Part shown: one piece after another, positions 22,123 through 23,978 of the stretch | How the letters are laid out: each line of letters starts with the position of its first letter | Position numbering within the stretch: the first letter of the stretch is position 1 | IMG/VR virus record: IMGVR_UViG_3300020404_000278 | Location: 1-23,978 of that record | Source of the DNA: a virus | Strand: one strand, 5' to 3' | Length of the DNA stretch: 23,978 nt | The notes under the pieces: model-generated | Told to the model about the DNA's origin: nothing | The model's database searches: none | What the model saw: the letters and a program-made list of their open reading frames with translations, nothing else | Translations under genes and position numbers: made by a program

Positions 22123-22320
22123 ATGGAAAGTCCATGTATAAGGGTATGTAAATTAAATTACGGTGAATATCTTTCAGTTAGTGGGCAACTGATTTGTATA
22201 GGTTGTGGAAGAACCCAAGATGAAATTAGAGAATGGTCAATCTATACAGATGAACAAAGAAGAAAAATTATGGAGAGACTAGATGGTTTCAACGAATATG
22301 TTGTCAAGACAACCAACTGA
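22123..22320 (+). CDS. DUF1289-type four-cysteine small protein
   Basis: A 65-residue protein that reads SPCIRVCKL at residues 3-11, then ICIGCGRTQDEIREW (24-38) and TDEQRRKIMERL. This is the pattern of the DUF1289 (YdhL-like) family: 'SPCI.VC.......C.GCGRT..EI..W.......R..I'. The four cysteines (5, 9, 25, 28) are all present, arranged CxxxC and CxxC, so metal or Fe-S binding is plausible; the biochemical role is not established to my knowledge. Family members are mostly small proteobacterial proteins, so this is probably host-derived. It lies between the capsid terminator and gp3, has a late-type promoter 5 bases upstream, shows no Shine-Dalgarno site, and overlaps the next gene by 38 bases. 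Confidence 0.8.
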   Translation: MESPCIRVCKLNYGEYLSVSGQLICIGCGRTQDEIREWSIYTDEQRRKIMERLDGFNEYVVKTTN

Positions 22321-22870
22321 ACTTGACTACGCAGACTCTACAAAGTTTAGATTTAAAATTAACAAACTACCAAAAGTAGAATTCTTTACAACACAATGTA
22401 CATTGCCAGGCATTAATCTTGGTGATGTTGTTATTCCTTCTCCATTTAAAGAAATACCAATTCAAGGTCATACATTAACGTATGATAATCTTGACATTAC
22501 TTTTCTTGTAGACGAAAAATTAGAAAACTATATTGAACTACATCAATGGTTAGTAGGTATTGGTTTTCCAAAAGCAAGAACCCAGTTTGAGTCATTCAAA
22601 CAAAATAATTCAGATGCATTTCCAGTACAAGGTGGAACAAAGGGTGAAGCAACAAACCCAGGCACACCATCTGGTGTACAAGGAATGTATGGTGATGCAA
22701 CATTAGTAATTACCTCAAGTAAAAATAACCCATCAGTAGAGGTAAGATTTTCTGATTTATATCCAGTATCACTAGGTTCTTTAAATTTTAATCAACAAGA
22801 GGGTGATATAACTTACCTAACTGCAACTTGTACTTTTACATATCTACGATACGAAATTTTTTCATTATAA
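22283..22870 (+). CDS. gp3: gp3-like tail completion / tube-type protein
   Basis: A 195-residue protein. Its core (TKFRFKINKLPKVEFFTTQC, then TLPGINLGDVVIPSPFKEIP, then LTYDNLDITFLVDEKLENYI, then ELHQWLVGIGFPKAR) shares the 'LPG..LG' and beta/helix layout of tube-type proteins such as gp19. In marine T4-like phages, as I recall, a protein of this type follows gp23 and is named gp3, the tail completion protein (176 residues in T4). The ORF starts inside the DUF1289-type gene (38-base overlap). GGAGAG (22272-22277) lies 5 bases before the ATG, supporting this start over 22298. The identity as gp3 is from synteny. A second tube-like or baseplate-tube protein is the alternative. Confidence 0.65.
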   Translation: MVSTNMLSRQPTELDYADSTKFRFKINKLPKVEFFTTQCTLPGINLGDVVIPSPFKEIPIQGHTLTYDNLDITFLVDEKLENYIELHQWLVGIGFPKARTQFESFKQNNSDAFPVQGGTKGEATNPGTPSGVQGMYGDATLVITSSKNNPSVEVRFSDLYPVSLGSLNFNQQEGDITYLTATCTFTYLRYEIFSL

Positions 22871-22873
22871 ATA
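22866..22873 (+). promoter_or_regulatory. T4-type late promoter upstream of uvsY
   Basis: An exact TATAAATA overlaps the gp3 stop codon. With T4-like spacing the start is at 22879, which is the first base of a long hairpin. Confidence 0.75.
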
Positions 22874-22878
22874 TAAAC

Positions 22879-22964
22879 GGTGGTGAATACATCTTGAACA
22901 AAAGATTTTTTATATTGAACTAGTGATTCAGTAAATATAAGAAAGAGAAGATAGATTCACCACC
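22879..22964 (+). promoter_or_regulatory. Long 5'-terminal hairpin in the uvsY leader
   Basis: GGTGGTGAAT (22879-22888) pairs exactly with ATTCACCACC (22955-22964). Inside this 10-bp stem are a 2x2 internal loop, a 5-bp helix (22891-22895 with 22948-22952), a lopsided internal loop, an 11-pair helix (22906-22916 with 22934-22944, one G-U) and a possible 3-bp apical stem. In total about 29 pairs form a rod of 86 bases. The first base is where the adjacent late promoter should start. GAGG (22975-22978) and the uvsY ATG (22987) lie outside the structure. It may protect the 5' end, act as a regulatory leader or be a processed small RNA. None of these is shown. Confidence 0.7.
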
Positions 22965-22986
22965 AACTTGAATTGAGGTATATAAT

Positions 22987-23415
22987 ATGGATTTAGAACA
23001 ACTACAAAAAGAAGCAGAAAAAGATTTAAAGATTGATAATGAGAAACTTGATATAGAATCTCTCAAGACACCACAACTCTACGGTAAATATCTACAAATC
23101 TATACTCGCTGGAACTTGTTATCAAAACAAGCAGAATCAGAATACAAAGTTCTCTATCGTAAAAAATGGGAATACTATTCTGGTAAATCAGACCCACAAA
23201 CATATCGTGAAAAACCTTTTGACTTGAAAGTTCTCAAACAAGACATACCAACTTATCTTGATAGTGATGAAGAACTAATTAAAGCAAAACACCAACTTGA
23301 TTATCGTAATGCAATGGCAGAATTTGCAGAGAGAATATGTAAGGCAATAAACAATCGTGGATTTCAAATCAAAAATGCGATTGATTGGAAAAGGTTCTTG
23401 GAAGGGTCATTTTGA
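22987..23415 (+). CDS. uvsY: Recombination mediator UvsY
   Basis: At 142 residues it is close to T4 UvsY (137). The segments LKTPQLYGKYLQIYTRWNLL and ESEYKVLYRKKWEYYSGKSD, then KPFDLKVLKQDIPTYLDSDE, and the C-terminus NNRGFQIKNAIDWKRFLEG are the known features of marine UvsY. UvsY loads the UvsX recombinase on gp32-coated single-stranded DNA and so supports recombination-dependent replication. The gene lies behind a late promoter and a structured leader of about 108 bases, much longer than the other leaders here. The stop overlaps the uvsW start. Confidence 0.95.
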   Translation: MDLEQLQKEAEKDLKIDNEKLDIESLKTPQLYGKYLQIYTRWNLLSKQAESEYKVLYRKKWEYYSGKSDPQTYREKPFDLKVLKQDIPTYLDSDEELIKAKHQLDYRNAMAEFAERICKAINNRGFQIKNAIDWKRFLEGSF

Positions 23416-23978
23416 TTATATCAAAGAAAAATGAGGTCTATCTTAATATTAAGACTGAACCAAACTTTGCAAGGGAACTTTCAGATTTTTTCACATTTGA
23501 AGTGCCTGGCGCAAGGTTTATGCCGTCCTATAGAAATAAATATTGGGACGGCAAAATAAGACTATTCAATCAAATGAATGGTGAAGTATATGTAGGACTA
23601 TTACCCTACATTGAAGAATTTGCAAAACGCAATGAATTAGATATTGAATATAAAGAAGGAGTTAAAGATGAGGGAGAACACAGAGATGCAGTCTTGGGTG
23701 GATTTGTTAGAAGAGTGTCACCTAAGTCCAAAGGAAAGACTTTACAGATTCGTGATTACCAGATGGCCGCATTTACTCATGCAGTCAGAAACAATCGGAG
23801 CCTTCTTCTTAGTCCTACTGCTAGTGGTAAGTCGTTAATAATTTACTTACTGAGTAGATGGTATGAATCTGATAGAGTTCTTATACTTGTTCCTACAACA
23901 TCTCTTGTGGAACAGATGTATTCCGATTTTATTGATTACGGATATCTTGAAGCAAAGATGCAAAAAATATACCAAGGT
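23412..23978 (+). CDS. uvsW: Helicase UvsW (3' truncated by window end)
   Basis: The frame is open to the last base, giving 189 codons of a protein of about 500 residues. Residues 1-90 are the UvsW-type N-terminal domain (FTFEVPGARFMPSYRNKYWD with GKIRLFN). RDYQ (114-117) begins the superfamily 2 helicase core, SPTASGKS (134-141) is Walker A and LVPTTSLVEQ (159-168) is motif Ia. In T4, UvsW is a branch-migrating RNA/DNA helicase that converts origin-type to recombination-type replication. I place the start at the TTG at 23412, which overlaps the uvsY stop and has GGAAGGG 5 bases upstream. No ATG occurs in frame before the conserved N-terminus. Confidence 0.93.
   Translation, partial: MIISKKNEVYLNIKTEPNFARELSDFFTFEVPGARFMPSYRNKYWDGKIRLFNQMNGEVYVGLLPYIEEFAKRNELDIEYKEGVKDEGEHRDAVLGGFVRRVSPKSKGKTLQIRDYQMAAFTHAVRNNRSLLLSPTASGKSLIIYLLSRWYESDRVLILVPTTSLVEQMYSDFIDYGYLEAKMQKIYQG

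Follow-up and report, generated by a model that had tools for sequence, protein, structure and literature searches.

Results

In the window considered here, namely, the whole 23,978-nucleotide stretch of an IMG/VR virus contig, a gene encoding a gp3/tail-tube-like protein (positions 22283-22870; PHROG 45, E 4.4e-32) precedes uvsY, encoding a UvsY-like recombination mediator (22987-23415; PHROG 231, E 2.6e-50), and uvsW, encoding a helicase (23412-23978, continuing past the end of the window; PHROG 16259, E 6.7e-54). These genes, like the features of the window described below, lie on the + strand. Because uvsW overlaps the uvsY stop codon, the two genes are probably co-transcribed. The order uvsY-uvsW is also found in Melnitz, a cultured marine T4-like phage of OM43. 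Although annotated as a putative restriction enzyme subunit, Melnitz gene 212 (L092:1929-3404) shows its match to DNA helicase families of the UvsW type (PHROG 16, E 2e-111).

Examination of the region preceding uvsY revealed an exact T4-type late promoter, TATAAATA, at positions 22866-22873, where it overlaps the upstream tail gene's stop codon. By the T4 late-promoter spacing rule, the first transcribed base would be position 22879. This base, predicted from that rule together with the conserved spacing seen in relatives, doubles as the opening base of a stem, termed P1, with five bases separating the end of TATAAATA from the stem. The 5' arm of P1, GGTGGTGAAT (22879-22888), pairs with its 3' arm, ATTCACCACC (22955-22964), all 10 pairs being Watson-Crick. 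Among the long-armed inverted repeats of the window, that based on P1 is the best paired (arms of 17 nt, 88%; 75-79% in longer ones).

Within P1, the core pairing, P2, joins ATCTT (22891-22895; the CUUX side) to AAGAT (22948-22952; the X'AAG side), as assigned from the fold and from the clade A alignment and, in the case of the CUUX side, from X-X' covariation in clade D. A conserved 5' core motif, CTTGAACA, is found at 22893-22900 (alignments A1, A2, and A5), with a conserved 3' core motif, AATATAAGAA, appearing in the alignments at 22934-22943, a position at which most clade D members present AATATAGAAC. An inner hairpin, the P3 region (22906-22944), involves pairing of 22906-22916 with 22934-22944 and of 22919-22921 with 22930-22932. 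The position of this hairpin is kept while its sequence varies, and its counterpart helix covaries in clade D. The Shine-Dalgarno sequence of uvsY, GAGG (22975-22978), lies outside the folded element.

The minimum-energy fold of positions 22879-22964 (86 nt) contains 29 pairs (10+5+11+3) at -25.9 kcal/mol, as compared with a mean of -10.7 kcal/mol for shuffled versions of the same sequence (z -5.4; 0 of 200 shuffles equally good). When the rest of the leader, which spans 108 nt (22879-22986), was folded along with the element, z was -5.2. In this manner, the description given in an earlier note on this DNA, namely, an exact late promoter, a perfect 10-bp stem opening at the predicted start base, some 29 pairs in 86 bases, a leader of about 108 bases, and a ribosome-binding site left outside the rod, was borne out at each point.

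Relatives of the region were next gathered by using five UvsY proteins and a single gp3-like protein as queries, yielding several hundred loci, the gp3-uvsY gaps of which were compared. Four clades were distinguished: clade A, comprising the window, L002, L083, and most of L013-L032; clade B, comprising L027 and L033-L060; clade C, comprising L061-L063; and clade D, comprising Melnitz and its relatives. The element stands before uvsY in related contigs (123 distinct upstream contexts) and in Melnitz, appearing in clades A-D as a stem-closed unit of 82-95 nt found 19-28 nt upstream of the uvsY start. In clades B, C, and D, as well as in the subclade of the window, that is, in every relative bearing the motif, TATAAATA lies 4-6 nt ahead of P1, the first base of which corresponds in Melnitz to position 129,850 of MZ577097. 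In clade A2, to which the window does not belong, CTATATAATA replaces TATAAATA 3-5 nt before the stem, such that a late start is unsure there. The CTATATAATA sequence of this clade (L013-L032) includes a perfect TATAAT just before P1.

The closing stem differs in sequence from clade to clade with pairing retained, as reflected in the pairs GGTGGTGAAT/ATTCACCACC, GGGTAAGGTA/TACCTTACCC, GGATGAGGTT/AATCTCATCC, GTGTGAGGGT/ACCCTCACAC, GAGCAGA/TCTGCTC, and GGACAGG/CCTGTCC, among others. Recurring within P1 in relatives are the CUUX/X'AAG core pairing and two unpaired strands, AACA and AAUAUAGAA. Each of the ten members folded was more stable than its shuffled versions, with z ranging from -2.9 to -5.7.

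The earlier note had held that related phages with intact gp3-uvsY gaps should present compensatory changes in the stems, and such changes were found in both clades A and D. Among 19 seed sequences of clade D, 7 of 23 pairs had changed on both sides, a count reached in none of 500 shuffles, and the covariation collapsed in slid-alignment controls. In an alignment of 72 distinct sequences, fitted to the model and including one clade A row, 16 pairs (113 cells) had changed on both sides (0/500 shuffles). A structure-free alignment of clade A placed pairs in 97.8% of cells, with both-side changes in 5 of 12 pairs (0/500 shuffles), all five in P1; P2 is mostly invariant in this clade. With a tree-based null devised for this analysis along the lines of R-scape, the X-X' pair (GC 42, TA 17, AT 10) gave an E of 0.017 among all 3,828 column pairs and, upon rescaling to the 23 pairs of the structure, further P1 and P3 pairs fell below 0.05. 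The remaining pairs are individually non-significant, given how few substitutions separate the sequences. Because G.U accounted for 92 of the pair cells and A.C for none, selection can be said to act on the + strand RNA. Comparison thus strongly supports evolutionary conservation of the fold.

All clades share the pairing CUUX/X'AAG, which forms a nested helix in clades A and C. Upon energy folding of clade B and several clade D members, P1 closes several hairpins, the last of which displays X'AA in its loop, such that CUUX/X'AAG may perhaps be a loop contact. An alternative drawing of the clade D core, containing a 3' hairpin (GAAC/GUUC, GUAAC/GUUAC) with CUUX/X'AAG as a loop contact, enjoys nearly equal comparative support and is broken in L324, L385, and L413, which are compatible only with the nested version. 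As judged from these alignments, the core may be either a nested helix or a pseudoknot.

The question of whether the clades represent one family was addressed with a covariance model, R1, built from clade D only. R1 recovered clade A gaps in register (L023, E 1e-5; L026, 6e-5; L028, 4e-4; L002, 1e-3), reached clade B weakly (L046, E 0.02), and gave no match in clade C. The window itself was matched at E 0.04, near the level of clade D reverse complements; as the latter score 19-25 bits under R1, matches in this range, that of the window included, offer no proof. The window nonetheless presents all of the family features, namely, a late promoter 4-6 nt before P1, a covarying P1, CUUX/X'AAG, the core motifs, and a downstream uvsY, with the X-X' pair being a G.G mismatch. 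The motifs CUUGAACA and AAUAUAGAA are conserved across clades at matching places. As motifs, gene, and promoter spacing are all shared, a common origin of clades A and D is likely, that clade B shares this origin is fairly likely, and that clade C does so is plausible, with clades B and C being joined to the family chiefly via position, spacing, and short motifs.

The distribution of the element was considered by scanning all IMG/VR contigs for the pattern ACTTGAACA-(18-45)-AATATAGAAC. Of the 57 stretches so identified, 28 correspond to the element, with uvsY following in all 28; the other 29, not followed by uvsY, look like chance matches inside genes. No copy preceding a gene other than uvsY was found among the motif matches, nor did a stricter pattern detect a copy in bacterial genomes. 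The complete Melnitz genome contains a single copy and the HTVC008M genome none; among cultured phages, DNA similarity reveals a copy in the four Melnitz isolates alone. Since close relatives of the window (L003-L012), as well as the cultured phages HTVC008M and Mosig, are without the element, it is dispensable. In a uvsY tree based on 142 columns, in which many forks are unresolved, its presence requires approximately four changes, with losses near the window.

Several features of phages lacking the element can be noted. In L003-L012, the gp3-uvsY gap is only 14-18 nt long and contains neither late promoter nor RNA, representing a natural deletion. In L068-L073 and in HTVC008M (L091:875-917), close to where the gp3-like gene ends, there is a different small inverted repeat, TTGCCA..TGGCA, with GATATAAT after it, which may be a sigma70-type promoter or terminator. 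Extra genes are also seen around uvsY in leader-free phages, including one annotated as DNA endonuclease V in HTVC008M (L091:918-1400) and one annotated as a 2OG-Fe(II) oxygenase in Mosig (L093:1929-2516).

Finally, local constraint on the leader was considered in pairs of related loci. In L387 and L367, the leaders are 95% identical, while the flanking hundred bases on each side are 52-53% identical. Identity between L311 and L399 is 97-100% upstream and, from approximately base 1700 onward, 98-100%, with the intervening uvsY frame (approximately 1195-1630) showing only 52-68% DNA identity. Judging from this profile, it is uvsY alone that was replaced by a distant homologue, with the leader, flanks, and uvsW retained; exchange of the leader is ruled out. 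The two UvsY proteins are probably some 45% identical, an estimate drawn from the identities of the nearest queries. As the same leader works with two such diverged proteins, UvsY is unlikely to be its specific ligand.

Discussion

The uvsY-uvsW genes are probably under the control of an RNA element. On balance, the gp3-uvsY gap can be read with reasonable, if incomplete, confidence as specifying a leader RNA that acts in cis on a late uvsY-uvsW operon, its 5' end sealed and its core serving to bind a factor. A cis-acting leader is favored by its invariable position, single copy, and co-occurring late promoter. RNA polymerase directed by the late promoter would start at the first base of P1, which would then close the leader and pair its 5' end. 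The interior would fold into a core held by CUUX/X'AAG and presenting the two conserved unpaired strands, with this core binding a trans-acting factor that would set late amounts of UvsY and UvsW, and the sealed 5' end shielding the message. The leader having persisted through an exchange of uvsY, such a factor is more likely to have come with the operon backbone or from the host, candidates being UvsW, another RNA-binding protein, and the machinery of late transcription, than to be UvsY itself.

Simple masking of the ribosome-binding site, one form that the switch raised in the earlier note could take, was not seen in the static folds. Across 123 leaders, mean predicted accessibility of the site was 0.50 with and 0.51 without the folded core. 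As static folds leave the site open, regulation would proceed via a factor, mRNA lifetime, or transcription. Covariation strongly supports the earlier proposal of a functional, structured leader opening at the first base of the late transcript, the roles put forward for it there being candidates only.

Were the element only a 5'-end stabilizer, P1 would pair the triphosphate end and hinder 5'-end-dependent decay, as in E. coli ompA and papA mRNA according to references given in PMC3997798, with the interior being mere filler. The location of P1 at the predicted +1 position in every TATAAATA-bearing relative, where pairing is kept and sequence is free, agrees with such a role, which accounts for the paired first base. 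It does not account for the conservation of CUUGAACA, AAUAUAGAA, and X-X' across clades, needless in a pure stabilizer, and this reading is thus considered possible but rather unlikely. The conserved core calls for more than 5' protection, most simply for a bound factor.

More speculatively, the leader could act as an RNA switch timing the mode of replication, bound by UvsW or by replication-coupled late transcription machinery, with the late UvsY-UvsW output that it sets deciding the passage from origin-type to recombination-dependent replication; this extended reading is offered only tentatively. In T4, UvsW is made from a late promoter and clears origins of their R-loops, such that the switch into recombination-dependent replication is marked by uvsW control (PMC3016281). 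That the operon headed by the element has a part in this switch is plausible.

Closure of the 82-95 nt unit by P1 at both ends, with constraint concentrated there, would also be expected of a small RNA cut from the leader or made independently and acting in trans. Each copy found, however, sits directly before uvsY, no terminator is seen at P1, and uvsY starts only 19-28 nt later, making this improbable. A compact fold with a conserved unpaired core could likewise describe a metabolite-sensing riboswitch ahead of uvsY-uvsW, and Melnitz does have a glutamine riboswitch elsewhere (PMC9004378), with Rfam family RF01739 having been found at L467. Yet, the element matches no Rfam riboswitch, no expression platform is seen, and recombination genes point to no obvious ligand, such that a riboswitch seems quite improbable. 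Still more doubtful is an RNA serving in replication, as R-loop or primer, at a uvsY-linked origin. T4 oriF, or ori(uvsY), is driven by an R-loop, UvsW unwinds R-loops (PMC3016281), and a folded 5' RNA is found here at the same gene; however, T4 oriF relies on a MotA-dependent middle promoter, turned off at late times (PMC3016281), the promoter here is late, and the MotA core TGCTT is absent from positions 22700-22990 on either strand. Lastly, although inverted repeats can arise randomly and the match of the window to the clade D model is weak, a chance fold or functionless DNA-level feature is scarcely credible in light of the compensatory changes, the 92:0 ratio of G.U to A.C, which excludes a DNA cruciform, and z values of -2.9 to -5.7 in ten of ten members, in agreement with the earlier view that chance was unlikely.

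Searches of Rfam 15 at strict and permissive thresholds returned only chance matches, none at the element in the window, L045, L256, or Melnitz, and the open-access literature searched contained no description of the element and nothing naming uvsY together with an RNA motif. As far as these sources show, the element is a new family of a known kind, namely, phage leader RNA, and would represent a new RNA family in marine phages. Its unusual trait is that the closing stem opens with the very base at which a late transcript is predicted to start. With a conserved RNA heading uvsY-uvsW in a cultured phage, the timing of these genes is testable.

Structured leaders of DNA-metabolism genes are known from T4, namely, the gene 32 leader pseudoknot and the gene 43 translational operator. 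The uvsY leader resembles these as the leader of a T4-type DNA-metabolism gene and, if protein-bound, would work alike; it differs in gene, fold, and the presence of a late promoter. Comparable autoregulation by UvsY, otherwise a first choice, is disfavored by the exchange of uvsY beneath a constant leader. The 5'-terminal stem-loops of E. coli ompA and papA likewise place a stem at the extreme 5' end, as predicted here, and leave the ribosome site free; the paired first base would fit protection from 5'-end-dependent decay. In contrast to these, the interior of the uvsY leader additionally holds a core of conserved sequence and another pairing that has been kept. Structured 5' leaders have also been found by comparison in marine T4-like phages, including manA, wcaG, and PhotoRC-II (PMC2864571), as well as the Melnitz glutamine riboswitch (PMC9004378), whereas the uvsY leader has no Rfam match and is tied to uvsY-uvsW and a late promoter. 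Melnitz is reported to be without recognizable middle promoters (PMC9004378). Finally, T4 oriF likewise lies at the uvsY promoter region, yet presents a MotA middle promoter, where the element described here combines a late promoter with a covarying RNA fold.
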